Positions 8,513-38,067 of a stretch of DNA of 38,357 nt are shown here, piece by piece. The position numbers and the translations under genes were made by a program. How positions within the stretch are numbered: the first letter of the stretch is position 1; every line of letters begins with the position of its first letter. The stretch is from Spirochaetales bacterium (GTDB lineage Bacteria > Spirochaetota > Spirochaetia > UBA9216): the NCBI GenBank assembly GCA_016839055.1, contig JAEKNX010000026.1, positions 1 through 38,357 on the forward strand, read 5' to 3'. The notes below the pieces were generated by a model. The model saw nothing but the letters and a program-made list of their open reading frames with translations, did no database searches and was not told the origin of the DNA.

Positions 8513-9245
8513 TTTTGGAGTCTATTGGCCACGGATTGGCTGCCTATATGAATAGCAACACGGATTGCATGTGAGGCTCTGCAGCGGTTCACGGATGAGA
8601 TATTTGGGACTATTGGCCACGGATATAGGCTGCCCAGATGAATAGCAACACGGATTGCATGCGAGGCTCTGCAGCGGTTCACGGATGAGATATTTGGGAC
8701 TATTGGCCACGGATTGGCTGCCCAGATGAATAGCAACACGGATTGCATGCGAGGCTCTGTAGCGGTTGACGGATAAGATCTTGAAGACTATTGGCCACGG
8801 ATTGGCTGCCCAGATGAATAGCAACACGGATTGCATGCGAGGCTCTGTAGCGGTTGACGGATAAGATCTTGAAGACTATTGGCCACGGATTGGCTGCCCA
8901 GATGAATAGCAACACGGATTGTATGCGAGACTCTGCAGCGGTTCACGGATAAGATCTTGAAGATTATTGGCCACGGATATAGGCTGCCCAGATGAATAGC
9001 AACACGGATTGCATGCGAGGCTCTGTAGCGGTTCACGGATAAGATCTTGAAGATTATTGGCCACGGATAAAGGCTGCCTAGATGAATAGCAACACGGATT
9101 GCATGCGAGACTCTGTAGCGGTTCACGGATAAGATATTGAAGATTATTGGCCACGGATTGGCTGCCCAGATATGTGGTCACACGGATTCAGGGTTAGCTT
9201 TTTCGCTTCAACCCTCTGTGCTCATCTGTGTTGTTCTGCATCTCA
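8513..9245. repeat. Tandem array 2: seven units plus terminal variant
   Basis: Starts with TTTTGGAGTCTATTGG, the same left edge as at 10052, 17717 and 21998. GGCCACGG recurs at 8527, 8615, 8705, 8793, 8881, 8969, 9059 and 9149 (steps of 88 or 90). The last unit has the ATATGTGGTCACACGG ending found at the ends of arrays 1 and 3. A degraded right half (TCATCTGTGTTGTTCTGCAT, ATTCGTGGTTT) follows to about 9255. Minus-strand open frames here are by-products. The gap 8381-8512 before it shows nothing else. Confidence 0.93.
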
Positions 9246-9249
9246 GAGA

Positions 9250-9651
9250 TTATTCGTGGTTTGTATTGATTATTTCGACAACCTGCTTATATATCGCTTT
9301 GGTCTCTTCGTAGAATTGCCTTGCTTTATCTGATGAAAGGTCTCCGTCAGGAAGTAATCCCAAATCGGCAGGATATCGCGAATCTATATAAGTTTCATTG
9401 ATTTCTTGAAGTTGTTCAATATTTATATCCAGCGGAAAGTAATTCCGAACGGTTCCATACAGTTTCAAGAGATTATGTATCTTTGACACGTTGCCGGTTT
9501 TTAATAAAATTAAAGCTTTAAAAGATTTTTCAATACATTGGTGAGAATGGAACGCTGTGATATTCGTGAGATATTGCTCATCAATTATTTTCTCTATTGT
9601 TTTTATATCTTTATCTGCATGAATTAGCCATTCTTCAGCCAGCTTTTTCAT
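9250..9651 (-). CDS. HEPN-domain protein (toxin partner)
   Basis: A 133-residue all-helical HEPN protein: LIHADKDIKTIEKI at the N-terminus, FHSHQCIEKSFKALIL in helix 2, and YIDSRYPADLG near the third helix. HEPN proteins in this pairing are usually RNase toxins, neutralised by the cognate MNT nucleotidyltransferase. The canonical R-x4-6-H dyad is not obvious here, as in many PF05168-type members, so RNase activity cannot be claimed from sequence. The gene overlaps the upstream MNT gene by 17 bp, which indicates a coupled two-gene module. Its 3' end abuts the remnant of repeat array 2. Confidence 0.85.
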   Translation of the reverse strand: MKKLAEEWLIHADKDIKTIEKIIDEQYLTNITAFHSHQCIEKSFKALILLKTGNVSKIHNLLKLYGTVRNYFPLDINIEQLQEINETYIDSRYPADLGLLPDGDLSSDKARQFYEETKAIYKQVVEIINTNHE

Positions 9652-9979
9652 ATATTATTTCACCTTTATCTCGGATTTCATTGTAAAATGGGCTTCTAAT
9701 TAATTCCATTTTTAAAAACTCTGCTTTCGTGAATACTAATATATCAATTGGTATTTCAAAGCTGATCTCTCTAATGGCATTTCTTACAAACATCTTATTC
9801 CGCAGTTTTTCATCGACATTCCGGGGTAAATCATTTCTATTTAAAATAACGACTAAATCGATATCACTATCAATATCTTCATTTCCTGCTGCTAAAGAAC
9901 CAAATAATATTATTTGAAGCGGATCTATCTGTTGCAGAGATTTTATCAGTTCTGGAAGATAACTTCTGAGATTTTCCAT
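9635..9979 (-). CDS. MNT-type nucleotidyltransferase (antitoxin partner)
   Basis: A 114-residue minimal nucleotidyltransferase. ILFGSLAAGNEDIDSDIDLV gives the GS-x10-DxD signature of the pol-beta superfamily, and the later FEIPIDILVF strand supplies the third carboxylate. MNT antitoxins can AMPylate the HEPN partner. I use the ATG at 9979 (MENLRSYLPE); an upstream ATG at 9997 would add six residues. Neither has a ribosome-binding site, but TATACT lies 6 nt before the 9979 ATG, so the message could be leaderless. The antitoxin-first order and overlap with the HEPN gene fit a HEPN/MNT module. Confidence 0.85.
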   Translation of the reverse strand: MENLRSYLPELIKSLQQIDPLQIILFGSLAAGNEDIDSDIDLVVILNRNDLPRNVDEKLRNKMFVRNAIREISFEIPIDILVFTKAEFLKMELIRSPFYNEIRDKGEIIYEKAG

Positions 9980-10051
9980 AATAAAAGTATACAACATGAT
10001 TATGAATTAAGAAATATACTTTTTAGACCCTGAGGCGGGGCACAGCTAAGA

Positions 10052-22213: not shown

Positions 22214-23317
22214 ATGAGTTCATTGGATAGATTAACTATTAAAGGTTTTAAATCTATTAAAGAGTTAACAGATTTAAAACTGAATAATCTCAATATACTA
22301 GTCGGCGGAAACGGTGCAGGAAAGACGAATCTTGTCAGCTTTTTCAGAATGCTTAGAGCGATGTTCGATGGCAATCTTGATGATTTTGTAAGGGATTCCG
22401 GAGGAATTGGTGATCTGCTATACAACGGTAGAAAAGCTACTTCTGAGATGAATTTTGAAGCATATTTTGGAGTAAGAGGGTACCGTTTCAAATTAAAGCC
22501 GACAGTAAATGATCAATGCGCTCTTATTAATGAGGCTCGGTACTATGATCGAGGAAGTAATGGTTGGTGGGAACTTGGAAATAGCAAAAATAACAAATCA
22601 TTACTAGTTAAAGAAGCAACTGGTAATGAAAAAGATAGTGGTTTAAGCAAACCCGTCTATGAAGCAATATCATCTTGGCAGATATACCATTTCCATGACA
22701 GCAGTGATAGCGCTGCCATGCGGCATTCTGAGATAGTTCAGGATAGCGGGGCGCTGCGGACTAATGCTTCAAATATTGCTCCATATTTATATAAACTAAA
22801 AAAACATTTCAAATCAGAATATGAAGAAATCCTGGATGCAGTGAGAATGGTTATGCCTTTCTTCGATGACTTTCTACTGGAAGTTGATGATTTTGGTCCA
22901 AAGAAAAGTGTGAATCTTTCATGGACACAAAAGGGGTCGGATTACCCGATGCAGCCCTACCATTTCTCTGACGGATCAATACGGTTTATATGTCTTGCAA
23001 CGGCTCTTTTGCAGCCCAACCCCCCTTCAACGATCATTATTGATGAGCCTGAACTTGGATTGCATCCTGCAGCAATTTCAGTCTTGGCAGAGCTTATACA
23101 GGATGCCGCTAAAAGAACACAGGTGATTATTGCAACGCAGTCTCCGTCATTAATTGATAATTTTACTGTAGAGGATATCATCGTAGTTAATAGGGAAGAT
23201 GGTGCTTCAACTTTTCAGCGATTAGATAGGAATAAGCTTGATAAATGGCTTGAAGATTATTCAGTAGGCGAACTCTGGACAAAGAATGTTATCTCCGGAG
23301 GACCTGTTTATGAGTGA
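22214..23317 (+). CDS. ABC-type AAA ATPase (AAA_21, OLD/RecF-like)
   Basis: 367 residues. RLTIKGFKSIKELTDLKLNN leads to the Walker A GGNGAGKT (31-38). The signature-like FSDGSIRFICLATALLQP lies near 250, Walker B TIIIDEPELGLHP near 275, and the His-switch region VIIATQSPSLIDNF near 305. Such ATPases pair with TOPRIM or other nucleases in anti-phage systems (OLD, Gabija, PARIS and AbiL types). GAGGGA precedes the ATG. The downstream DUF4276 gene overlaps by 8 bp, so the pair should be co-translated. Confidence 0.88.
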   Translation: MSSLDRLTIKGFKSIKELTDLKLNNLNILVGGNGAGKTNLVSFFRMLRAMFDGNLDDFVRDSGGIGDLLYNGRKATSEMNFEAYFGVRGYRFKLKPTVNDQCALINEARYYDRGSNGWWELGNSKNNKSLLVKEATGNEKDSGLSKPVYEAISSWQIYHFHDSSDSAAMRHSEIVQDSGALRTNASNIAPYLYKLKKHFKSEYEEILDAVRMVMPFFDDFLLEVDDFGPKKSVNLSWTQKGSDYPMQPYHFSDGSIRFICLATALLQPNPPSTIIIDEPELGLHPAAISVLAELIQDAAKRTQVIIATQSPSLIDNFTVEDIIVVNREDGASTFQRLDRNKLDKWLEDYSVGELWTKNVISGGPVYE

Positions 23318-23984
23318 TTATGTTAACATATTTGCTTTGGTTGAAGGACAAACGGAAGAAATCTTCATCAAAAAAGTCTTACAACCTTATTTTATCAATA
23401 GGCAGATTTACATAACACCGATAAGACTCTCAAAACCTGGAGAAAAGGGTGGCGATGTTAAATTCTCGCGTGCAATAAACGATATTAGAAGACATTTAAA
23501 GCAGCGCTCTGATACCTATGTTACTCTCTTGATAGATTATTATGGTTTAAAAGAATGGCCAGGATTGGAAAATGCGAGAGGAAAAGCTGAACCGTCAGAA
23601 ATAGCAGCGGAAATTAACAATGCCACTCGGATAAAGGTTAAAGAAGAGTTGCCTGATGTCGATTCAGAACGAAGGTTTCTTCCTAATATTGCAGTACACG
23701 AATTTGAAACCTATCTTTTTAGTGATTCCGGAATTCTTTCAACCGTCCTTGGTGTTGAAAAGAGTTCTGTTGATGAAATACTAGCTACATTTAGAGATCC
23801 CGAAAAAATCAATAATTCGGTTGAAACTGCACCGTCAAAGAGAATTGAAAAGATGAATAACAGGTTCAAAAAGACTGTCACAGGAATAAAAATAGCTGAG
23901 TCAATTGGTGTTCAAACTATGCGTGAAAAGTGTTCAGTATTCAATAATTGGATAACCGAGCTGGAATCACTAATAGAAGCGTGA
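23310..23984 (+). CDS. DUF4276 protein, probably TOPRIM-like nuclease partner
   Basis: 224 residues from the ATG at 23310, which has GGAGG 8 nt upstream; an ATG at 23286 lacks a site. The N-terminal VNIFALVEGQTEEIFIKKVL and the later TLLIDYYGL follow the glutamate and D-x-D-like pattern of TOPRIM folds. The C-terminal half (LPNIAVHEFETYLFSDSGIL and following) is typical of DUF4276. With the AAA partner it resembles an OLD nuclease split over two genes. The activity is not proved, and the second acidic motif is only partly conserved. Confidence 0.8.
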   Translation: MSDYVNIFALVEGQTEEIFIKKVLQPYFINRQIYITPIRLSKPGEKGGDVKFSRAINDIRRHLKQRSDTYVTLLIDYYGLKEWPGLENARGKAEPSEIAAEINNATRIKVKEELPDVDSERRFLPNIAVHEFETYLFSDSGILSTVLGVEKSSVDEILATFRDPEKINNSVETAPSKRIEKMNNRFKKTVTGIKIAESIGVQTMREKCSVFNNWITELESLIEA

Positions 23985-25918: not shown

Positions 25919-26053
25919 ACAATTTTAATTATATCTTATTAAGAGCAAATCCGCCAGTTTTTTGAAGGTGCACAGGCAATTCTGGATTTGACTGCAATTC
26001 CCCCGAATGTTGGCCCTTGCTGACCCCGGCATTATAATGAAAAACAAATTTTG

Positions 26054-26222
26054 TAATAATGGTTATCATTTTTTCATAGTAATGATTATATATTTTTATA
26101 GTAATGGTTATATATTTTTATAGTAATGGTTATATGTTAAGGCTAGTAGTGTTTATATTTTTTGATAGTAATGAAAAATTAATTTTGATAGTAATGAAAA
26201 TTTAGTTTTGATAGTAATGAAA
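26054..26222. repeat. Eight TAGTAATG motifs at 22-23 bp spacing (iteron-like)
   Basis: TAATAATG starts at 26054, TAGTAATG at 26077, 26099 and 26121, TAGTAGTG at 26144, and TAGTAATG at 26166, 26189 and 26212. Steps are 23, 22, 22, 23, 22, 23, 23. The spacers are A/T tracts, first GGTTATATATTTTTA-like, later AAAATTTAGTTTTGA-like. Two helical turns per step place all motifs on one face. There is no gene here. The stretch 25919-26053 before it is plain AT-rich DNA. Confidence 0.88.
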
Positions 26223-26542: not shown

Positions 26543-26964
26543 GTCAAGGCCAAGGCAAGCCGCTGCGCGGACCTTGACTGTTCGTTGCTCCAAGTTTCCT
26601 GTTTTAATTAAAACAGGGAGGTTGTTCGATTTGCTATGCAAATCGATTTGAAGTTTTCAGAGAAAACTTCATGATTACAAACTTTTTGAGAGTTTTCAGC
26701 CAGTTGGTGCGTTTATCAAGGTTCACAATGAGTTGGGGCCGGGGCTGCTTGAAAGCTGTTATCATGATTGTTTTGCATCCTGCAAAACAATAGGAAGTTT
26801 TCTATGAAAACTTCAAATGCTTTGTTTTATGAATTGAAAAAGGCGGGGCTGACGGTTGCTTACAATGCGCCGTTTAATGTTCAGTACCAGGGTGAAAGCG
26901 TCGGTGAGTGATTGGCGCAAAAGCTCATCCATGAGCGCGCCAATTTATGTACATCCTTGTACAT
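26543..26964. repeat. Cluster of short perfect hairpins in and before the GxxExxY remnant
   Basis: GTCAAGG/CCTTGAC (26543-26578); CCTGTTTTAATTAAAACAGG (26598-26617); GATTTGC-TAT-GCAAATC (26628-26644); TGAAGTTTTC-AGA and its complement (26649-26671); ATTGTTTTGCA-TCC and its complement (26767-26791); GAAGTTTTC-TAT-GAAAACTTC (26794-26814); ATTGGCGC-AAAA-GCTCAT-CC and complements (26911-26944); ATGTACA-TCCT-TGTACAT (26947-26964). They come in adjacent pairs, mostly with 2-4 nt loops, at three sites. Confidence 0.85.
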
Positions 26965-27740: not shown

Positions 27741-29321
27741 ATGGATAAATTTGAAAAAGCTCTAACTACATATGTTAAAGCATCAATTCCTGTTTTATCA
27801 GTTGCAACATATGAATGGCAAAGGCTGCATGGGTTTTGTGTCGGAGCAGCAATGGAACATGATCTTGTTCTATATAAATGGAGTGTAGTAAGTGGGCTCG
27901 ATAAATGGGGAAAAGGGGAAAGCACCTTTATTTGTGAAGATAATGAAAAAAAAGATCCTATTGATATTCTTTCATGGTTTGAAAATGCTGAACAGAGTCA
28001 TTGCATACTTCTTTTAGAAGATTTTCATCCATTTATGACCTCCGAGAACTATCAAATTGTTCGGTTTATACGGGAAATTACACGTATTAATAGCAATCAG
28101 CAAAAGATACTGATTATCCAAACTCCCTATATTGTGAATTTACGTGAATTGGAAAAAGAAGTTCCTATTCTCGAGTTAGAACTCCCAAAAGAGAATATTC
28201 TGAGAACTATTTTGAATAATGTCCTTGATGAGTTGGCGTACGACGATAAACCCAATGATGATAATGAAATTAAAGATATCGTCTCTGCTAGTCTCGGTAT
28301 GAGTAGTGTTGAAGCAGAATGGACATACAAAAAAATCATTGCAGAAAGAGAAAGACTCACCATCTCTGAAATCACTCTCATCGTAAATGAGAAGGAACAG
28401 ATCATTAAAAAAGAGGGGATATTGGAATATTTTCACCCCGATAGTGATTTTAATCAAGTTGGCGGGATGGAGAGTTTAAAAAAATGGCTGAATAAGAGAG
28501 GTAAGGCTTTTTCTAATGATGCCAAGGATTTTGGTCTTACATCACCAAAGGGTGTAATGCTGTTAGGTGTTCCAGGGTGTGGTAAGAGTCTAATTGCAAA
28601 AACAATTGCCAATGAATGGAACCTTCCTCTTCTTAAATTTGATCTGGGGAAAGTTTTTGGTGGTATTGTGGGTGAGAGCGAATCCAATATCCGTAAGGCA
28701 CTATCTCTGGCTGAAACTATAGCACCTTCGATTCTTTGGATCGATGAAATAGAAAAAGGTTTAAGCGGCATCAACGGTGGTGGAGACAGCGGAACCAGCG
28801 CCCGTGTTTTCGGCAATTTACTTACATGGATGCAGGAGAAAAAAAGTGAAGTATTTGTTATTGCCACGGCAAACAATATAGAGCAGTTACCTCCTGAGCT
28901 CTTACGTAAAGGTCGTTTTGATGAAATATTTTTTGTAGATCTTCCATCAAAAGAGGAAAGAAAGGATATCTTTAAAATCCATATAGAACGGAAAAAAAGA
29001 GATGTTCGTCTATTTGATATAGATAACTTAGCGGCAGAATCGATCGGGTTCTCTGGCGCTGAGATTGAAGAAGCAGTCAACGAAGGTTTATTTATTGCAT
29101 ATGCTCAATCTCAGGATTTGAGCACTGAGAATATTTTTGAAGCTTTAAAATCCACTTACCCTTTATCAAAGACAATGAAGCATACAATCGAAGATCTTCG
29201 TAAATGGGCAAAAGTTAGAGCAAGATTTGCATCCAGTCAGGAAACAGATGAACTGCCGGAAATCCAAGATGCAGAGAAGGTTCCTCAGTTAAAACAGGAA
29301 AAACACAATCCATTTATATAA
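27741..29321 (+). CDS. Ycf46-like AAA+ ATPase
   Basis: 526 residues. The first ~230 form a degenerate P-loop-like domain (VLSVATYEWQRLHGF, ILLLEDFHPFMTSENYQIVR) as in Ycf46 proteins. The C-terminal AAA+ module is complete: VGGMESLKKWLNKRGKAF, Walker A GVPGCGKS (276-283), Walker B ILWIDEIEKG (D335, E336), sensor ATANN (375-379) and LLRKGRFDEIFFVDLP with arginine fingers R389/R392. Ycf46 is encoded in some plastids and cyanobacteria and has no settled function. It probably remodels a protein or RNP in this operon. The ATG has AAAGGA upstream; the helicase gene follows after 9 bp. Confidence 0.88.
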   Translation: MDKFEKALTTYVKASIPVLSVATYEWQRLHGFCVGAAMEHDLVLYKWSVVSGLDKWGKGESTFICEDNEKKDPIDILSWFENAEQSHCILLLEDFHPFMTSENYQIVRFIREITRINSNQQKILIIQTPYIVNLRELEKEVPILELELPKENILRTILNNVLDELAYDDKPNDDNEIKDIVSASLGMSSVEAEWTYKKIIAERERLTISEITLIVNEKEQIIKKEGILEYFHPDSDFNQVGGMESLKKWLNKRGKAFSNDAKDFGLTSPKGVMLLGVPGCGKSLIAKTIANEWNLPLLKFDLGKVFGGIVGESESNIRKALSLAETIAPSILWIDEIEKGLSGINGGGDSGTSARVFGNLLTWMQEKKSEVFVIATANNIEQLPPELLRKGRFDEIFFVDLPSKEERKDIFKIHIERKKRDVRLFDIDNLAAESIGFSGAEIEEAVNEGLFIAYAQSQDLSTENIFEALKSTYPLSKTMKHTIEDLRKWAKVRARFASSQETDELPEIQDAEKVPQLKQEKHNPFI

Positions 29322-29330
29322 GGTGAAAAA

Positions 29331-32300
29331 TTGTCAAACGATTATTGGAATAACAAAAACATGTTGAAATTGGGAGATCACCTGTATTACAGTGCGATTG
29401 CTAAGGATAATCCGGGAAAAGTCCGGGCGTTGGTTAATACCACGAGAGAATCGCTTTCGCCTTATTATTCTTTTTTGGATGAAGCTATCAAAGCTGAGAA
29501 TAAACGGGGTAGCTTTGAAATCAATTGGGAAGAAGTTCGTTCTGAAGTGGTTCTCAGAGTTAATCCCAGATTTCAAAAAATAAAACTTGTAAAACCGCAA
29601 CCTCAAATATTGATTGATATAACGGGGATTGATATTGAAGAGGGGAAAAATCGTCTTATTTATGATATGCAGGATGAAATGTTTTCTTTCCATAAAGATG
29701 ACGTTGATATAAATAATACGAACTCTGAATTGATCTATACCCCCGAGCTTATGCCTGAAATGCATGAAAAACTTGAATTAAACAAAAAAGAAGTCTCATA
29801 CAAAATAGTAAATGTGACTCTTAACAATCAGTCTAAATTAGAAGATGAAAAAGGCAAGATCATTGATATTCACGATTTAGAGGAAATTACTGATGGCTGG
29901 AATATTACTGTTGAAGCTTCAACCAGGATTGAACATCTATCTTTAAACGGATTAAAACTGAAGGCTCTTGTATATGATATTGAATCGTTTGAGGTGCTCT
30001 ATGATGCTGATAAAAAGATGAACTTTGCAAAGATAGGCTCAGAACTTCATGTTGACCAGGAGCCCATATCAAAATTTCTTATATCAGAAAAAAAAGTGGA
30101 ATACACATGGTATAAAATCAAAAACAAAAAAAAAGAATACGCTATTCAGCTGATAGATGATGACAGACTCGATACAGAAAAACTCATTAGTGAACATTTT
30201 TTTGATGATGGTGTAAGAGCTATATATCAGGGTAAGGATAAACGCAACCAAATTGATATAAAACATAAAAATGCTGATGAGAAAATATTGATCCTTAAAT
30301 CAAATTCAAGGAATCCTATTGAACTAACAAAGAATGAACCCATCAAAATTGCTGTGAACATAACGACATTACGCAGACAGAAAGATGCTGTCAAATATTT
30401 GAATGACACACCGGTTAAGAATCAGAAGAATCTGATTAAGCTCTTTGAGAAGAAGCATTCTTCATTATGGAGCAGGGGCAGTACTAAAGAAATTCGTGAT
30501 TGGTATGTGTTGAAGGATGAATCCTACGATGGAACTTTATCGCAACGTAGATTTGTAATAAAGGCTCTATCCACCGATGATTTTGCATTTCTTGAGGGAC
30601 CTCCCGGGAGCGGTAAAACCACAGCAATAATTGAACTCATACTGCAACTAGTGAAAACCGGGAAGAAAATTTTGCTTTCTGCTTCAACACATGTTGCTAT
30701 TGATAATGTTTTAGAAAGAATAAAGTCTTATGACACAGATGATCTCGTTGAACCTTTGCGAATCGGAGACAGTAGCAGAATTGATGAAGCCGTTGTTTGT
30801 TATCAGATAGATGAAAAAATAGAGCGCTATAGAAAAAAAGGCGTTAGTGAAGATCTCGCCAGAAAAATTGTCCTTGACGGGGCTAATCTTGTATGTGGTA
30901 CTACGATGGGTATTCAGCAGCATCCCTATATAAAGGAAAGAGGCCATAATTCTGACCTGCCAATAAACCCTATATATGATTATATGATTATTGACGAATC
31001 TAGTAAAACCACGTTTCAGGAGTTTCTAGTACCTGCTCTGCAGGCTAAGAAATGGGTTCTTGTAGGAGATATTAAACAGCTTTCTCCTTTTATTGAACAG
31101 GAACATATAATCCATAATTTTAATTTTCTTGTTGATGATTACACGCAAAGAGCAATAAGAATTGCTTTTGAAGCTCTGAACAACAATGCCAATCCTTATG
31201 TTATTGAAGTTGATTTACCTGTTATCGATTATATTACCAAATACTTAGATTATTGGGATGAGGTGTCAGATAATCCTTATAGAGGAAAAATTGTTAATAT
31301 AATTATTCAACCTTTAAATGATGATATATATCTGGCGAATAATCTTTTTAATTTACTTGGCAGCGATTTAATCCTCATGCAAACCGGTATCTGGGAGAAA
31401 ATTAAACAATATATACCCAAGACACATATTGTTATTTTAAAGAAACCGGATAAATTCGAGCCATTCTATTATCAACAGCTCTATTTGAATCAACAAAAAC
31501 GTTTACCAAAGTATTCAAAGATTAATAAGAATACGATAAAGGATAATAACCCTGTTGCCGCCGGAGATCTTTTTAGCGAAATGTTAAAAGAGAGATCATG
31601 GGCTGAAGAGATCTCATGGAGAATGATCAGAGTCTATGAGAGACGAATGTTGAAAAATCCAAATTCTTATTACGAGAGAACATTTGATCTATTAAAACCG
31701 ATTGGCAAAGATAATGTTGTAGACCGAATCTACAATATGACGTTGCCTTCTATTTTGGAGTCTCTGCAAACTGGGAACGGTGAAAAGCATAGGAATGAGA
31801 CCACTATAACAGATGGATTTGAAAAAAATGAGCTGAGACCCAGGCATGAAATGTTAGATTATCAGCATCGTATGCATTCGGAAATTTCAGCTTTTTCCAG
31901 AGAAGAGTTTTATACAACAGAAGAGAGGGTTGCTCTCAAAGATGGCAAAAATACAGACAGAATCTGGGATTTTGATCATTATAATCATCGGGCAATATGG
32001 ATAGATGTTCCTAAAAAAGATAAGAACCAGGATAATATACATCAAGCAGAAGTCGACCGTATTATTAAAGAGCTAAATGTTTTTATTCAATACGCTATAG
32101 CAAATCCTCATCCTGAGGGTAGAGAGTGGTCTGTAGCGATTATTACCTTTTACCGACCACAGGAGACATTGCTTAGAATAGCATTAAGGAAATATTGTAA
32201 TCTCCCAAACAAAATGTCTCGTTTTAATAAAGAAGGAATCCAAATCTTAAATTATACAGTCGACAAGTTCCAAGGAATGGAGGCCGATATTGTTTTTCTC

Positions 32301-32474
32301 AGTATGGTTCGGGGGAAAACTATAGGATTTCTGGATAATATTAACAGACTCAATGTGGCCCTGACCCGGGCCCGATTTCAACGGGTTATCCTGGGAGACA
32401 TTAATTTTTTCAGGCATCAAAGGAACTCTGACGAATTAAAAAGATTGGCAGAGAAAAGTGAGGTTGTAAAATGA
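29331..32474 (+). CDS. Upf1/COG1112-type SF1 helicase with large insertion
   Basis: 1047 residues from a TTG start at 29331, preceded by AAGGTG. Residues 1-400 are a unique, partly beta-rich N-domain. Helicase motifs are I EGPPGSGKTT (422-431), II MIIDESSK (D555, E556), III VGDIKQLSPF (from 578), IV LDYQHRMHSE (H846), V VDKFQGMEADIV (from 977) and VI NVALTRAR (from 1008). Motifs III and IV are about 260 residues apart, far more than in typical Upf1-like enzymes; the insert is helical and unrecognised. It should unwind RNA or DNA 5' to 3'. Its TGA overlaps the next ATG (ATGA). Confidence 0.9.
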   Translation: MSNDYWNNKNMLKLGDHLYYSAIAKDNPGKVRALVNTTRESLSPYYSFLDEAIKAENKRGSFEINWEEVRSEVVLRVNPRFQKIKLVKPQPQILIDITGIDIEEGKNRLIYDMQDEMFSFHKDDVDINNTNSELIYTPELMPEMHEKLELNKKEVSYKIVNVTLNNQSKLEDEKGKIIDIHDLEEITDGWNITVEASTRIEHLSLNGLKLKALVYDIESFEVLYDADKKMNFAKIGSELHVDQEPISKFLISEKKVEYTWYKIKNKKKEYAIQLIDDDRLDTEKLISEHFFDDGVRAIYQGKDKRNQIDIKHKNADEKILILKSNSRNPIELTKNEPIKIAVNITTLRRQKDAVKYLNDTPVKNQKNLIKLFEKKHSSLWSRGSTKEIRDWYVLKDESYDGTLSQRRFVIKALSTDDFAFLEGPPGSGKTTAIIELILQLVKTGKKILLSASTHVAIDNVLERIKSYDTDDLVEPLRIGDSSRIDEAVVCYQIDEKIERYRKKGVSEDLARKIVLDGANLVCGTTMGIQQHPYIKERGHNSDLPINPIYDYMIIDESSKTTFQEFLVPALQAKKWVLVGDIKQLSPFIEQEHIIHNFNFLVDDYTQRAIRIAFEALNNNANPYVIEVDLPVIDYITKYLDYWDEVSDNPYRGKIVNIIIQPLNDDIYLANNLFNLLGSDLILMQTGIWEKIKQYIPKTHIVILKKPDKFEPFYYQQLYLNQQKRLPKYSKINKNTIKDNNPVAAGDLFSEMLKERSWAEEISWRMIRVYERRMLKNPNSYYERTFDLLKPIGKDNVVDRIYNMTLPSILESLQTGNGEKHRNETTITDGFEKNELRPRHEMLDYQHRMHSEISAFSREEFYTTEERVALKDGKNTDRIWDFDHYNHRAIWIDVPKKDKNQDNIHQAEVDRIIKELNVFIQYAIANPHPEGREWSVAIITFYRPQETLLRIALRKYCNLPNKMSRFNKEGIQILNYTVDKFQGMEADIVFLSMVRGKTIGFLDNINRLNVALTRARFQRVILGDINFFRHQRNSDELKRLAEKSEVVK

Positions 32475-33961
32475 GAATAACTCTAAAAAAGAAGATACAG
32501 TTAAAATCTATCGAAATCCTTGCTGAGGTTGATTTTAATCATGAAGAATCACCTTACATCGAATTGTTAGAGCAATATACAAATCAACAAGATATGAAAC
32601 AAAAATTGGCAGAAAGCGGTGTCGAGAGTGCCGCTATAAATAATATTTTAAAAAATCTTACAGCGTTAGGAATTATTGAAAATGGATCAATAAAAAACAT
32701 TCAGAAAGGGTTTCCGGAAAGAGAATATGGCAAATACGAAGTTTTATACTATGAAAATGATACTAATTTACCTTTCAAGTATCAGATTCACAGTATAAAA
32801 CGAACAGGTGTCGTTTCCGGAAATCGGGCAGATCGGGTAGCAAAGATACAGTCGGAATTATTAAAATCGTTACTTGAAGAATCCAGAGATCTAAGTAGTG
32901 GGAAAAACTTTAGAATTCTTAAGATTATAAACGAACAAGGAATACATGATATTAGATGTTCCTGCACTGAGAGCCTTGCTATGGTTTTTGAAAATAATGA
33001 TTGGACATATTTCTTTAGTGATATCAAGGACCGGTTTAGTATGCCGCCAATTGAATTGAATTATTCATTTAGAGGCCGCTGGAACAGTGAAGAGATAGCT
33101 CTTGAATTAGACTACGTTGATGTTTGCAATGATGACAACGCAGTTAGAAAGTTCTTATTTACCTTCGAAGATGATTTAGAGATACCTGAGTACGGGAATC
33201 TTCAGGGGGGTTACGACGATATCCCTATAATCCCGAATGAGAGTAGTTATCGGAATTGGTTCTTGCATCTTTTGAAAGAGGAAGTTCAGTCATGTAACAG
33301 GTATTTTACTTACGATGAAATCGAACAGTTGTGGTGCAATTTATATCACAAGACTCCTCAAATACATAAGCGCTTTGAATTACCCTTTGACTTTAGTAGT
33401 ATTTCTAAGGAATATTCAGTTGACTCTGAACTCTATTGGCTGTTAATGACCGGAAAAGACTTAAATCCTTTTGTAAACACCAAGAGTAATGGATATGGTC
33501 GAAATGAAACAATAGAGCAAGATACTGATGTTGAACTGAAATATTTATTCGATAGAAAATTGGATTTTTCTAATATAAATTATCTTCTTATCATTGACCG
33601 ATATGTTAATACGCTGCGGCATTTTCAGTCTGTGGAAGCAATGTTATCTCCTTATAACGGAAGAATAGAAACAACGATTGTCTCGCAGGAATATTATAAA
33701 ACGACGGCACATGAACAGAATCTGATTAAAGAAATATGCGAGGTAAATAATATAAAAAGAATTATCAGAGAAAAGACTGCAATTCCCCATGACAGGTATT
33801 GGATTCTCGACAAGAAAATATTTTATAATTTCTCTAAGAGTGTTGATTTTATTATGATAGATAAAGAAAAAATTGATGTACAACACACTCAGATTTTCTA
33901 TATTCCTGAGGATAGAGTCGAGAAGCGGGTGATCGAATTAGCGGGGGCAATCAATGGGTAA
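32471..33961 (+). CDS. Unknown protein with wHTH-like start and PLD-like C-domain
   Basis: 496 residues. Residues ~27-75 look like a winged helix (YIELLEQYTNQQDMKQKLAE, NNILKNLTALGIIENGSIK). The middle is unassigned, with a Cys pair in IRCSCTES. The C-terminal ~130 residues resemble a PLD-like domain: NYLLIIDRYVNTLRHFQSVE, GRIETTIVSQ and IPHDRYWILDKK, where H440, R442 and D447 give the HxR...D pattern of one PLD subgroup that would act as a nuclease or a bare fold. It overlaps both neighbours (4 and 8 bp), so stoichiometric synthesis is likely. Confidence 0.7.
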   Translation: MRITLKKKIQLKSIEILAEVDFNHEESPYIELLEQYTNQQDMKQKLAESGVESAAINNILKNLTALGIIENGSIKNIQKGFPEREYGKYEVLYYENDTNLPFKYQIHSIKRTGVVSGNRADRVAKIQSELLKSLLEESRDLSSGKNFRILKIINEQGIHDIRCSCTESLAMVFENNDWTYFFSDIKDRFSMPPIELNYSFRGRWNSEEIALELDYVDVCNDDNAVRKFLFTFEDDLEIPEYGNLQGGYDDIPIIPNESSYRNWFLHLLKEEVQSCNRYFTYDEIEQLWCNLYHKTPQIHKRFELPFDFSSISKEYSVDSELYWLLMTGKDLNPFVNTKSNGYGRNETIEQDTDVELKYLFDRKLDFSNINYLLIIDRYVNTLRHFQSVEAMLSPYNGRIETTIVSQEYYKTTAHEQNLIKEICEVNNIKRIIREKTAIPHDRYWILDKKIFYNFSKSVDFIMIDKEKIDVQHTQIFYIPEDRVEKRVIELAGAING

Positions 33962-35660
33962 GATAATTAGGAAAAATCTCAAAGACAGTATTGATCAAAA
34001 TAATGAGATTCTAAAATATTTCATAGAAGAGAAAAAGGAATCAACAAAACAGAATTATTCGGACATTATTAATAAATTTGATATAGCAGAAAATATGATC
34101 TGTATAGCTACCACAGGTTTGCTCCACGCGGATATTATAGAAAGTTTGTATAATATTATTACCAATGGAGTACGCGTTTATATAATTTTAAAATCATTCC
34201 AGGCAGCTAAAGATGTATTAGTAAAATTCGATAAGAAAAAACCTGCACTATTAAGAGAAGTGCCTGAACTTGAAAATGATTTCATCATTGTAGATTCTGC
34301 TGCTACTCTTTATTTAAATTGCTTAGGTGATAAGAAAAATATCGGTATTGAATTCGATAAAGACTTTTCAAATGATCTATATTATTGGTTCAATTACTAT
34401 TTCTGGAATAAGGCTAAGGCTGAAAAGATCCTTGATAAAATAGAAAAACCTATGGAGTCACCCTATCCTCCTTTTGAGAACGAAAAAGAGAATATCAACA
34501 TAGGCATTGCTAGCAGATTGGAAGAATGTGAGGCTGTCATTGTGCCTTCTGATGAGAAATATAGAGAAATAAATGAGCAAGTGAGCAACTATTTTTACTT
34601 CAGTAAAGATCTATCTTCTTCTCTTTATTTCATCGGTGGTAAAACTGTAATCGGTGCTTTTGAGATCAACAGAAATTTCTTTCAGAATATTGGGCAAACA
34701 TGGCTATTAAAGGAAAATCTATTAAGTAAAATTAATATCAACGACGATATAGTACCCTTTGAAGTAAAATGGGATAAGGTTATTAATATTCAGGAGCAAA
34801 GTACAATACTTCTGGAGAATGTCAGGTCCTCCTCAATAGAAGGAATGGATCAGACTAAACCTAATACTATTCCTCAAAAGCCCTATGTAAAAAAACTTCA
34901 CTTTGAATGGATTGTCTTGCCACCGGTAAAACCTGTAAATGCTAACAAAGCTTCACTCTATCAGGACTATTCCACAATTCAAAAAAAGTTTACAGAAGAC
35001 CTTGTGAGGTTGAAGAGGGTTGTAATAGAGATCCAACTGAACAATAGTCCGGTGATCCAATTTTTCTCAGGTGCGAAAAAGAAGGCTGAAGAATATTCTA
35101 AAACAATTGAAGAATATGAAAACTTATTACTCGAGAAAATGGACTTCAATAGACTGAAAGATCTTCTTGATACTAAGTTTAAACCCTTTTATGAAGAAAT
35201 ATATAAATTTTCAGTCAGCTTGAAGAAGGGCATCGACAGGAAGAAAAAAGAACAAGTCTGGGAAGGACTGAAAAAAGAAAAAATCAAATCTCTATCGGAT
35301 AAAAATCAAGAACTTGCACGGCTTAAGTATGAAGTAAAAAAGCAGGACCCAAAAATAATTAGCAAGTTGAAGAGAGAAATCGAACTGTTAGAAAATTATA
35401 TAACAAAGAACTATTCTGAGTTTAAATATAAAGAGTCTTCCAATGAATTGGAAAATCTCAAAAAAACTGACAATAAAAAAATTAGCTTTCAGAATTACAC
35501 CCTACCTAAATACCCAATTCCTGAAGTCGGTGTTCTTTTTGAAGACAAGACATCCTATTATCTGGAAATTGAAGATTACGATGTTCTGGACCAGGCAAAT
35601 AGATTAGTAAAAGAACGTTATATAAATAAACCTGCACAAGTTGTCGTTAAGGAGAGCTAA
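33954..35660 (+). CDS. Unknown protein with degenerate PLD-like N-domain and coiled coil
   Basis: 568 residues. Residues ~40-165 have a PLD-like order (AENMICIATTGLLHADIIES, NGVRVYIILKS, ENDFIIVDSAATLYLN, KNIGIEFDKDFSNDLYYWFN) but lack the HKD histidine and lysine, so it is probably inactive. The middle has a second alpha/beta region. About 340-510 is charged, helical and partly coiled coil (KKKEQVWEGLKKEKIKSLSD, KLKREIELLENYITKN). It could be a scaffold pairing with the HDR-containing PLD-like protein upstream, as PLD domains work in pairs. Confidence 0.68.
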   Translation: MGKIIRKNLKDSIDQNNEILKYFIEEKKESTKQNYSDIINKFDIAENMICIATTGLLHADIIESLYNIITNGVRVYIILKSFQAAKDVLVKFDKKKPALLREVPELENDFIIVDSAATLYLNCLGDKKNIGIEFDKDFSNDLYYWFNYYFWNKAKAEKILDKIEKPMESPYPPFENEKENINIGIASRLEECEAVIVPSDEKYREINEQVSNYFYFSKDLSSSLYFIGGKTVIGAFEINRNFFQNIGQTWLLKENLLSKININDDIVPFEVKWDKVINIQEQSTILLENVRSSSIEGMDQTKPNTIPQKPYVKKLHFEWIVLPPVKPVNANKASLYQDYSTIQKKFTEDLVRLKRVVIEIQLNNSPVIQFFSGAKKKAEEYSKTIEEYENLLLEKMDFNRLKDLLDTKFKPFYEEIYKFSVSLKKGIDRKKKEQVWEGLKKEKIKSLSDKNQELARLKYEVKKQDPKIISKLKREIELLENYITKNYSEFKYKESSNELENLKKTDNKKISFQNYTLPKYPIPEVGVLFEDKTSYYLEIEDYDVLDQANRLVKERYINKPAQVVVKES

Positions 35661-35663
35661 GAA

Positions 35664-36137
35664 ATGAGTCGAGTTATTCATATTAAAGGAAGTGTTATCA
35701 TCGAAAATATTGAGATAGCCCGGAAGGCTCTAAGCCAGTCATTAGTTCAAGGAATAACGATTGAAGAAAAGAGATTTGTTTTTAATAATTATGATAATAA
35801 TGACGGATATAATAAAAAAACTGAGATTGGGCAAGTGGAGACAATCTACCAATCGTTGTTGAATGAGTATTATCAACTAATTGCTGAAGAAAAAAGGCTT
35901 TTAGAAGAAAAGATTGTTGAAGAAAAACTTTTTCAGATGGAACAGGAGTTGAAGAGACTTGACGAATTAAATCGATTGGAAGAAGAAAAAATTCGTATTG
36001 AAAGTGAAAAAAGGGTCATCCGTGAGCAAAAGAAAGAGATGATTATTAAAAATGCTAAGAAGCAAGGGTATATTGTTAAGAAAGAGATTACAAAAAATAA
36101 TACTATCAAACTCGTCCTGCAGAGAAGAGTTTATTAA
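35664..36137 (+). CDS. Coiled-coil protein with DUF1257/Ycf35-like ends
   Basis: 157 residues. The N-terminus MSRVIHIKGSVIIENIEIAR and the C-terminus IKNAKKQGYIVKKEITKNNT plus IKLVLQRR resemble the first strand/helix and the last strands of DUF1257 (Ycf35) proteins as I recall them. Between them lies a charged helix (about 65-125; LLEEKIVEEKLFQMEQELKR) likely to be a coiled coil. DUF1257, DUF2997 and Ycf46-like genes are known neighbours in cyanobacteria, which supports the call, but it needs a profile comparison. GGAGAG precedes the ATG, which lies 3 bp after the previous stop. Confidence 0.55.
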   Translation: MSRVIHIKGSVIIENIEIARKALSQSLVQGITIEEKRFVFNNYDNNDGYNKKTEIGQVETIYQSLLNEYYQLIAEEKRLLEEKIVEEKLFQMEQELKRLDELNRLEEEKIRIESEKRVIREQKKEMIIKNAKKQGYIVKKEITKNNTIKLVLQRRVY

Positions 36138-36703
36138 TGCTGAACATTTTCCATATTGAAACAAATAATTTTGTAAATGGCATTGGTAATCGCTTTGTAA
36201 TATGGCTCCAGGGATGTAATTTAGGTTGTCCAGAGTGTTGGAACAAGCAAACTTGGAGTATGGCGGCGAATACATTGACTAGTGTCGATTCTTTACTTAA
36301 TAGAATTGAAAACAAACCTGGTATTAAGGGTGTAACCTTTACAGGGGGGGAGCCCTTTTTGCAGGCTAAAGAACTTTCTATGTTAGCGAGGCTCATCAAG
36401 GAAAAAACAGAATTAAGTATTCATATATTTACAGGATATGAGCTTAATGAGTTGGCTGACTGTTATCAAAAGGAATTGCTTAAATATACCGATACTCTTG
36501 TGACTGGAAGGTTTGATACAAGTATAAGGAACAATAATCAGAAAACACATTATCTAAACGCGCATAGTCCTGCTTGGGGTTTTAACAATAGCGATGTTGA
36601 AATTGATATAGATGAGAACAACAATGTAATTATGACCGGCTATCCCACAGATGAACTGGTTAGCGGATTGGAAGGAGTCCTTGATGACAGAATATATGAT
36701 TGA
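36137..36703 (+). CDS. NrdG-like small radical-SAM 4Fe-4S protein
   Basis: 188 residues. IGNRFVIWLQGCNLGCPECW carries the radical-SAM CxxxCxxC (C27, C31, C34). VTFTGGEPFLQAKEL is the SAM-binding GGE motif, and LVTGRFD plus the terminal VEIDIDENNNVIMTGYP are usual in short activase-like members. NrdG activates anaerobic ribonucleotide reductase, but no nrdD is here, so it may act on another protein of the operon, for example the DUF2997 or AAA+ protein. It starts on the last base of the preceding stop (TAATG) and overlaps the next gene by 20 bp. Confidence 0.85.
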   Translation: MLNIFHIETNNFVNGIGNRFVIWLQGCNLGCPECWNKQTWSMAANTLTSVDSLLNRIENKPGIKGVTFTGGEPFLQAKELSMLARLIKEKTELSIHIFTGYELNELADCYQKELLKYTDTLVTGRFDTSIRNNNQKTHYLNAHSPAWGFNNSDVEIDIDENNNVIMTGYPTDELVSGLEGVLDDRIYD

Positions 36704-36884
36704 AATAGATATTGATGAGAATGGTGATGTTAAGGCAGAGACGAAAGGTATGTGCGGTGAAATTTGTGTGAATGAATTAGATGAAATTTTAAATGGAATT
36801 GATGGAGAACGAAGCAATAAAAACAAACCGGAGTTTTACCAGAAAATAAAGATAAAAAACGTTGTTAACCAAAAAGCGAAATGA
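36684..36884 (+). CDS. DUF2997 protein
   Basis: 66 residues from the ATG at 36684, with AAGGAG 7 nt upstream; an ATG at 36651 lacks a site. MIEIDIDENGDVKAETKGMC followed by GEICVNELDEILNGIDGE is the DUF2997 pattern (strand, strand, GxxGxxC, helix). The basic tail (KPEFYQKIKIKN) is normal. It is a small acidic protein of unknown role. Overlap with the radical-SAM gene suggests that the two proteins interact or that this is its substrate (inference). Confidence 0.8.
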   Translation: MTEYMIEIDIDENGDVKAETKGMCGEICVNELDEILNGIDGERSNKNKPEFYQKIKIKNVVNQKAK

Positions 36885-36945: not shown

Positions 36946-38067
36946 ATGAGAAATAAAGATAAGTTCCGCGGTTGTCTAATCGGCGGGGCAGCAGGTGATG
37001 CTCTTGGTTACGCTGTCGAGTTTATGAGCCTGGAGCAGATAAGACAAAGGTACGGCAGCCGCGGGATAACAGACTTTGTGTTAACAGATGGCGCGGCACT
37101 AATTTCAGATGACACCCAGATGACCCTGTTTACAGCCAACGGCCTATTAATACGGACAACCCGGGGAATGGGAAGAGGTATAGCTGCCAATCCTCAGGAT
37201 TATTGCTGGTACTGCTATAAGGCCTGGCTTAAGACGCAGGAAAGCGATTTCCATCGATGGAAAAGCAGTGTTAAAGATGTTTCCAAAGAGTATCCATGGC
37301 TTATAAGAGTGCCTGAACTTCATAGCGCCAGAGCTCCGGGCAATACTGTGTTAAGGTCATTACGGGCTGATGTCGCGGGGACAAGAGATAACCCGCTTAA
37401 TAGTAGTAAGGGCTGCGGGGGCTTAATGCGTGTTGCGCCGGTAGGTCTTTATTTTGAAGAAAGGGATATTTATATCAATCGGATTTGTATTCATGGGGCG
37501 AATATTGCGGCTTTAACGCACGGTCATCCTCTTGGTTATATTCCTGCGGCTGCCTTTGTATATCTGATAAATCGGATTACTTACTGTGAACAGACTGAGC
37601 CTGAATTAAAGGAGATTGTCACCGGGTGCATAGCTGAGATGAATACGCTTTTCCAAGGTACTCCTCATATCGATGAGTTTATTTCTATCATGGAAAAGGC
37701 TGTTGAGTTATCTGAATCAGATATGGATGACGAGAGTGCAATTTCTTTGCTTGGAGAGGGCTGGGTTGCCGAAGAGACTCTTGCTATCGCGATCTACTGC
37801 GTGCTTAGATATCGTGATAATTTTGAGAAGGCACTTGTTGCGTCGGTCAATCACAGCGGAGATAGTGATTCCACGGGTTCTGTCGCCGGGAACCTGATGG
37901 GGGCTTTACATGGTTATGATAGAATTCCTGAAAAGTTTAAATGCAATCTGGAGTTAAAGGATATCATACTCGAAATTGCAGATGATCTGTGTTCTGACTG
38001 CACAATTGATGAATACTCTATTAATACTGAGGAAGACGATAGGTGGTATTGGAAGTATAGCTGCTAA
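36946..38067 (+). CDS. ADP-ribosylglycohydrolase (DraG/ARH family)
   Basis: 373 residues. DKFRGCLIGGAAGDALGYAV, LISDDTQMTLFTANGLL (S54-D55-D56-T57) and HSGDSDSTGSVAGNLMGALH (D306, D308) supply the di-magnesium centre of ARH enzymes. They remove ADP-ribose from arginine or other residues, or degrade small ADP-ribosyl compounds. GGGGA precedes the ATG. The gene follows the DUF2997 gene after 61 bp on the same strand, so it may share the operon or stand alone. No ADP-ribosyltransferase is visible in the window. It is GC-richer than the operon before it. Confidence 0.92.
   Translation: MRNKDKFRGCLIGGAAGDALGYAVEFMSLEQIRQRYGSRGITDFVLTDGAALISDDTQMTLFTANGLLIRTTRGMGRGIAANPQDYCWYCYKAWLKTQESDFHRWKSSVKDVSKEYPWLIRVPELHSARAPGNTVLRSLRADVAGTRDNPLNSSKGCGGLMRVAPVGLYFEERDIYINRICIHGANIAALTHGHPLGYIPAAAFVYLINRITYCEQTEPELKEIVTGCIAEMNTLFQGTPHIDEFISIMEKAVELSESDMDDESAISLLGEGWVAEETLAIAIYCVLRYRDNFEKALVASVNHSGDSDSTGSVAGNLMGALHGYDRIPEKFKCNLELKDIILEIADDLCSDCTIDEYSINTEEDDRWYWKYSC

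Follow-up and report, generated by a model that had tools for sequence, protein, structure and literature searches.

A seven-gene spirochaete operon combining a UPF1-like helicase with a Ycf46-type AAA+ and radical-SAM module, and its possible role in defence

The 38,357-nucleotide contig JAEKNX010000026.1 of a Spirochaetales bacterium (GenBank assembly GCA_016839055.1), referred to in its entirety as the window, carries an operon of seven genes. These encode, in order, a Ycf46-like AAA+ ATPase, a superfamily 1 (SF1) helicase, a protein designated P3, a protein designated P4 that derives from the phospholipase D (PLD) family, a probable, divergent DUF1257 protein (P5), a small radical S-adenosylmethionine (SAM) protein, and a DUF2997 protein. 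As this set is found again in distant bacteria, it is very probable that its genes form one functional system. No characterised relative of the AAA+ half was found, and the combination is absent from both PADLOC and the papers retrieved; the individual parts belong to known families, and helicase/PLD cassettes of a known kind are related to the helicase half. The likeliest account, which in its full form we rate at somewhat less than an even chance, is that the seven genes specify one machine of two modules, in which a helicase complex would be assembled, remodelled or modified by an AAA+ unit, most plausibly in defence against mobile elements.

Recurrence of the seven genes and co-descent within the set

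All seven open reading frames lie on the plus strand between positions 27741 and 36884 of the window (Table 1), separated successively by a gap of 9 bp, overlaps of 4 and 8 bp, a gap of 3 bp, and overlaps of 1 and 20 bp, and sequences resembling ribosome-binding sites precede the starts of the AAA+, helicase, P5 and DUF2997 genes. An earlier note, made from the letters of the window alone, had read these genes as a single unit; every coordinate and spacing figure that it gave matched, and the view of one unit is borne out by the recovery of the same set in three gene orders, which argues that the association is not due to chance. In a member of another spirochaete family (genome G334, locus L030) the order is helicase-P3-P4-DUF2997-DUF1257-radical SAM-AAA+, while an IMG/VR contig (L039; L162 is 100% identical to it and was not counted separately) displays the order AAA+-helicase-P3-P4-DUF2997-DUF1257-radical SAM. 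The GC content of L039 is 63%, as compared to 38% for the window, and its dockerin-like and Rhs-like neighbours suggest a host outside the spirochaetes, perhaps a planctomycete. Partial sets were observed in a third spirochaete (G447, L029), in which AAA+, helicase, P3 and P4 genes are followed by the end of the contig, and in genome G037, where helicase, P3 and P4 genes occupy a contig of 3.7 kb (L015). DUF2997 was not found in either of these two genomes, of which G447 is 75% complete, and the DUF2997 proteins of the seven-gene loci lie near the detection limit.

Phylogenetic analyses indicate that the two halves of the operon have descended together. A tree of 91 AAA+ proteins places the copies from the four seven-gene loci (the window, L029, L030 and L039) in one clade with a Shimodaira-Hasegawa-like approximate likelihood ratio test (SH-aLRT) value of 100, the helicases of these loci split from those of a related cassette described below (support 95/100), and their radical-SAM proteins likewise group together (support 91/95).

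The distribution of the system is patchy. A P3 profile run over 393 Spirochaetota genomes identified three carriers, including the genome of the window itself, and P4 was not found in the closest relatives, with only one distant match among 148 genomes. Searches of plasmids with P3 and P4 returned no match, the only full relatives of the helicase on plasmids belong to the related cassette, and viral scans with the helicase alone yielded nothing at first. The genome-wide scan employed poor patterns and recovered only Haliotispira and two remote helicases, such that the distribution outside the Spirochaetota is under-sampled. While the nearest genomes lack the set, other spirochaete families and a lineage of 63% GC carry it; the system is not confined to close relatives, as the earlier note had allowed that it might be, nor are its homologues scattered without their partners.

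Table 1. Genes of the operon and sequence features within them (positions in the window)
Feature	Position	Strand	Evidence
Ycf46-like CDC48-type AAA+ ATPase, 526 aa, with Ycf46-type N-terminal region	27741..29321	+	Pfam AAA 6e-35
AAA+ Walker A motif GVPGCGKS	28566..28589	+	
AAA+ C-terminal tail VPQLKQEKHNPFI, (K/R)QExxNPF motif	29280..29318	+	
UPF1/SMUBP2-like SF1 helicase, 1047 aa, TTG start	29331..32474	+	Pfam AAA_11/AAA_12; PADLOC MkoA 4e-81
P3: N-terminal part of about 350 residues homologous to gene 2 of the RtcR-type cassette; extra C-terminal domain	32471..33961	+	
P3 HDRYWILD motif, within the extra C-terminal domain	33788..33811	+	
P4: PLD-derived, lacking HKD motifs; long charged C-terminal region	33954..35660	+	hhalign 97.8%; alignments
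P5: probable, divergent DUF1257 (Ycf35) protein, long charged helix	35664..36137	+	independent profile 9e-6
Small radical-SAM protein of NrdG/Fer4_12 type, 188 aa	36137..36703	+	Fer4_12 2e-30
CX3CX2C iron-sulphur motif CNLGCPEC in the radical-SAM protein	36215..36238	+	
Small protein of the DUF2997 family, 66 aa when begun here	36684..36884	+	Pfam, just above cut-off
Conserved cysteine codon (G-x-x-C) of the DUF2997 protein	36765..36767	+	

The helicase, P3 and P4

The helicase is of the COG1112 type, matching the Pfam families AAA_11 and AAA_12 (2e-29 and 8e-34), and its motifs are intact (GPPGSGKTT, DESSK, QHRMH and VDKFQGMEAD). Its relatives of solved structure are SMUBP-2, DNA2, UPF1 and SEN1. 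Profile and alignment data indicate that the helicase-P3-P4 segment shares its ancestry with a four-gene cassette composed, in the same order, of a helicase, a P3 protein, an active PLD protein with two HKD motifs, and an RtcR-like regulator combining CARF and sigma54 domains. Carriers of this RtcR-type cassette include Haliotispira (L014), two Vibrio plasmids (L026 and L027) and a Pontibrevibacter plasmid (L028); Candidatus Haliotispira prima and the genome of the window are members of one class. The cassette, which is mobile and has no name, resides in defence islands and on plasmids, and its settings include type III CRISPR genes, dnd genes and a PARIS-like pair. The window differs from it in possessing a dead P4, an extra domain in P3 and the AAA+, DUF1257, DUF2997 and radical-SAM genes, and in lacking an RtcR gene, a regulator matched in the cassettes by the PADLOC model RtcR_PspF1.

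The earlier note had described the products of the third and fourth genes as two PLD-like proteins, a description that the comparisons support for P4 but not for P3. Profile-profile comparison by hhalign relates P4 to the active-site-bearing PLD proteins of the cassettes at 97.8%. In alignments, the HxKxxxxD motif is absent from the catalytic positions of P4 in the window, L029, L030, L039 and L015, while two intact HKD motifs are present in the PLD proteins of L014, L026, L027 and L028. P4 is accordingly predicted to be a pseudo-nuclease in every seven-gene locus, its HKD residues having been lost. A string HSKSGIED in P4 of L029 was considered as an HKD motif and rejected; it lies outside the aligned catalytic position and is taken to be a chance occurrence. 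The best PDB sequence matches of P4, all weak, were to mitochondrial cardiolipin hydrolase and to FAM83B, a pseudo-PLD.

With regard to P3, comparison with genuine PLD profiles gave a probability of only 0.1%, no convincing PDB match was obtained, and a Pfam scan found no family. Its first approximately 350 residues are homologous to the product of gene 2 in the RtcR-type cassette (profile-profile 97.6%, E 3e-12), and this shared region contains a winged-helix-like LTxxG motif. The extra C-terminal domain is present in most P3 proteins of the seven-gene loci and, in alignments, absent from those of L030 and the RtcR-type cassettes; all four P3 proteins with the domain retain the H-x-R of its HDRYWILD motif. 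The AlphaFold model of P3 is too poor to read (predicted local distance difference test score, pLDDT, of 39), and the fold of the extra domain is likewise not modellable. The proposal that a pair of PLD proteins cuts nucleic acid is therefore not upheld, since P4 lacks its HKD motifs in all seven-gene loci and the comparisons made with P3 gave no convincing relation to PLD.

The AAA+ protein, its small partners and the surroundings of the operon

The AAA+ protein, the sole full-length copy in its genome, displays 28-54% identity over its full length to Ycf46-like proteins and carries, in addition to its Walker A motif, the Walker B sequence LWIDE and the motif LLRKGRFDE. In a first survey its C-terminal (K/R)QExxNPF tail was present in 4 of 4 AAA+ proteins from seven-gene loci and in 0 of 96 others. 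A later sample revealed the same tail in AAA+ proteins of family f53 (L148), which are nested within the seven-gene clade, and this rules out the idea that the tail is specific to loci with the helicase. Locus L148 (10223-19900) comprises AAA+, DUF2997, DUF1257 and radical-SAM genes together with neighbouring coiled-coil and dynamin-like genes, and three of its proteins bear an NPF(I) motif, possibly a common docking motif. Proteins encoded next to the AAA+ gene in L006, L032, L017, L019, L036 and L018 also share similar C-terminal motifs, in which basic residues are followed by a hydrophobic-x-hydrophobic pattern (e.g., RRRALDL, RRLEF, ARKLDI); these are perhaps an AAA+ docking tag.

P5 was not matched by DUF1257 in the Pfam scan, and a DUF1257 profile built without the seven-gene proteins nevertheless detects both P5 (9e-6) and its L039 counterpart (5e-27), consistent with the assignment in the earlier note. 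The three seven-gene DUF1257 proteins possess the most highly charged helices among 45 DUF1257 rows, and the AlphaFold model of the L039 homologue (pLDDT 94) places a helix at residues 91-141. The radical-SAM protein matches both Fer4_12 (2e-30) and Radical_SAM (5e-10), and its iron-sulphur motif is intact. An identity as NrdG was rejected, the score of 107 bits falling below the equivalog cut-off of 126 and NrdD residing on another contig, where it has its own weak radical-SAM neighbour; the NrdD match in the genome of the window (G000, contig C43, 238047-239890; L155, L156) contains an in-frame TGA, attributable to selenocysteine or to a frameshift. Rejected as well was an identity as prokaryotic viperin: the PADLOC pVip model scored 28 bits and covered residues 25-101 only, and the NCBIfam viperin model reached 23 bits, its cut-off being 180. 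The DUF2997 protein scores 24.3 bits against a Pfam cut-off of 24.1 when its frame neighbours are included. Its start at 36684 is preceded by 'ggaagga', and a longer alternative starting at 36651 has no similar sequence. The cysteine of the family is conserved in 40 of 40 proteins and the GxxC motif in 39, the remaining protein lacking the glycine.

AAA+, DUF1257 and DUF2997 genes, often accompanied by a radical-SAM gene, recur without the helicase on plasmids (Paenarthrobacter, Rhodococcus, Bacillus, Paenibacillus, Rhizobium, Manganitrophus and cyanobacteria), in Rhizobium and Rhodobacter phage genomes, and on IMG/VR contigs. Among 80 IMG/VR loci with the AAA+ gene, 26 have both DUF1257 and DUF2997, four have only the former, four only the latter, and 46 have neither (p 7e-13); all ten of the loci that encode a radical-SAM protein have both (p 2e-5). 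In spirochaetes, radical-SAM, AAA+ and DUF2997 genes are found additionally inside contractile injection-system clusters, among sheath, tube and baseplate genes. L140, L141, L142, L145 and L004 carry AAA+(Ycf46)-DUF2997 pairs, mostly with a radical-SAM gene, in or beside such clusters, and we know of no radical-SAM protein described from contractile injection-system clusters. The earlier note had named these genes as neighbours in phototrophs, which is too narrow, the module being common on plasmids and phages of Actinomycetota, Bacillota, Nitrospirota and Alphaproteobacteria, with AAA+, DUF2997 and radical-SAM genes also present in the spirochaete clusters. Locus L148 shows that the AAA+ core module can exchange its partner set.

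Upstream of the operon by 3.8 kb lies a HEC-01 candidate defence pair, an ATPase gene and a DUF4276 gene (22214-23984; PADLOC 469 and 239 bits), and in L039 a serine recombinase gene is located approximately 1 kb downstream. Between the HEC-01 pair and the operon are a run of AT-rich near-repeats of 22-23 bp at 26027-26222 (TTTTATAGTAATGGTTATATAT) and a 25 bp inverted repeat at 26646-26818. A gene for an ADP-ribosylglycohydrolase (36946-38067) begins 61 bp past the operon; it was rejected as an eighth member, as it does not lie downstream of the system in L030. Elsewhere in the window are a gene pair of toxin-antitoxin type encoding HEPN and nucleotidyltransferase proteins (9250-9997) and, at 70-546 and 8522-9181, overlapping open reading frames made up of near-identical repeats (..SVANNLQYLIREPLQSLACNPCCYSSGQ..) that probably represent interspersed repetitive DNA.

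Comparison with known systems and possible functions

By the defining features tested, the operon is not a Mokosh, CoCoNuT or DISARM system, and its radical-SAM protein is neither viperin nor NrdG. The earlier note had pointed to a helicase plus PLD as the core of Mokosh, and the helicase is indeed a relative of MkoA (4e-81), a COG1112/UPF1-like SF1 helicase; no other tested Mokosh feature is present apart from a PLD-derived gene. In Mokosh type I, MkoA bears a kinase domain, whereas no kinase model matches the window helicase (Pfam, up to E 0.1). Neither P3 nor P4 of the window, L030 and L039 matches MkoB, no helicase-PLD fusion of the MkoC kind exists, P4 of the window has no HxKxxxxD motif, and the operon contains four unrelated additional genes. 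A divergent Mokosh system with passenger genes is, on these grounds, highly improbable. CoCoNuT systems of Types II and III encode a UPF1-like helicase, CnuH, with CnuE, an elongated winged helix-turn-helix (wHTH) protein with a nuclease, and are associated with RtcR (PMC11090510). The operon resembles them in its UPF1-like helicase, which is followed by a possibly winged-helix-like protein, and through the RtcR of the related cassettes, but has no McrB GTPase or McrC in the operon or its neighbours and no active nuclease was found in it; the signs of a CoCoNuT-type wHTH in P3 are its LTxxG motif and a model of low confidence. As for DISARM, there is no match to DrmA or DrmB, and DrmC matches P4 of L030 at a mere 15 bits.

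The AAA+ half has two further points of comparison. Firstly, the AAA+, DUF1257 and DUF2997 families are held in common with the Ycf46, Ycf35 and DUF2997 genes of cyanobacteria and plastids; in Synechocystis, DUF2997 and ycf35 adjoin the ferredoxin gene fed7 (PMC4284462), while the window has a radical-SAM gene in place of a ferredoxin, the added helicase, P3 and P4 genes, and a long charged helix in P5. No paper was found that assigns a function to these three families. Secondly, AAA+ proteins of the Afp15 type belong to extracellular contractile injection systems, and the spirochaete radical-SAM-AAA+-DUF2997 loci inside injection-system clusters recall this arrangement; the window AAA+ falls in another subclade, and the window has no tail genes. 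The expectation of the earlier note that the combination is not a known system thus holds for PADLOC and for the openly accessible literature, in which neither a describing paper nor a published name was found.

A possible mechanism begins with the helicase, the winged-helix-like P3 and the HKD-less, PLD-fold P4, which may form a nucleic-acid-binding complex. This complex would detect RNA or DNA that is foreign or damaged, and P4 would serve in it as a binding scaffold and not as a nuclease. The AAA+ ring, DUF1257, DUF2997 and radical-SAM proteins would then constitute a unit for protein assembly, remodelling and modification. That the AAA+ unit acts on the helicase complex is slightly favoured; it could assemble or dismantle that complex in an ATP-dependent manner, docking possibly through its C-terminal NPF tail. 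The radical-SAM enzyme may place a radical-based modification on a protein partner, for which the conserved cysteine of DUF2997 is the first candidate, and action upon DUF2997 itself is offered as a tentative suggestion of rather low probability. A defence role, to which we assign marginally better than even standing, is suggested by context, namely the HEC-01 pair upstream, the location of the related cassette beside type III CRISPR genes, dnd genes and a PARIS-like pair, and the CARF-RtcR regulator of that cassette.

Several observations weigh against a single defence machine. The L030 set is placed among metabolic and transport genes without defence neighbours. In L148, no helicase, P3 or P4 gene was present within the 20 kb read, so that the helicase is not obligatory for the AAA+ module. 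The module, common in phages and injection systems, is not a marker of defence, and the L039 model of DUF1257 has no solved structural relative with an E value below 0.1.

Foremost among the alternatives is nucleic-acid surveillance or repair, in which a UPF1-like helicase complex, assembled with the help of the AAA+/radical-SAM module, would act on damaged or stalled RNA. The solved relatives of the helicase are consistent with such a role, as is the control of the related cassette by RtcR-type CARF-sigma54 regulators; RtcR proper reportedly governs an operon for RNA repair whose regulation depends on damaged tRNAs (PMC7790460). The patchy distribution (P3 in 3 of 393 spirochaete genomes; one distant P4 match in 148 relatives) and the defence-rich surroundings fit an accessory system better than housekeeping, and the seven-gene loci lack an RtcR regulator; we therefore regard this alternative as unlikely.

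That two separate systems lie side by side, a helicase/PLD defence cassette having landed in the Ycf46-type module of a mobile element with which it is co-transcribed but does not co-operate, is quite unlikely. Each module does exist alone, as RtcR-type cassettes on one hand and AAA+/DUF1257/DUF2997/radical-SAM loci on the other, and L148 lies within the AAA+ subclade without a helicase. Yet the combination occurs in three gene orders and in distant genomes, its AAA+ proteins form a single clade, as do its helicases, and no locus of that helicase clade has an active P4, a state of affairs that chance neighbourhood would not retain. A role in the life cycle of a mobile element itself, such as the assembly, replication or counter-defence of a phage or integrative element, appears very unlikely; while AAA+, DUF1257 and DUF2997 genes do occur in Rhizobium and Rhodobacter phages, phage-like plasmids and many IMG/VR contigs, and L039 has its serine recombinase, genes for phage structure or replication were recognised neither in the window nor in L029 or L030, and plasmid searches found the helicase/P3/P4 part on no plasmid together with the AAA+ module.

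Returning to the two-module machine, its most far-reaching form is a speculation that we consider unlikely. It posits immune machinery of a new class, whose helicase/pseudo-nuclease sensor would be controlled by a radical-SAM enzyme and a CDC48-like AAA+ ring through a protein modification made by radical chemistry, the DUF2997 cysteine being the modified carrier. On this view the AAA+, DUF1257, DUF2997 and radical-SAM proteins would be a maturation module of general use, exchangeable between systems and at work in injection systems, phages and plasmids as well as, together with ferredoxin, in cyanobacteria and plastids. Were the defence reading to prove true, the use of a radical-SAM enzyme alongside a dead PLD subunit would be a new design for a defence-type system. 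Ycf46, Ycf35 (DUF1257) and DUF2997 are conserved families of cyanobacteria, and Ycf46 and Ycf35 are conserved in plastids as well; the operon and its relatives reveal these families as a mobile module with a radical-SAM partner, which in this operon is joined to a helicase and a pseudo-nuclease, and provide a small system in which their functions become open to genetic testing.

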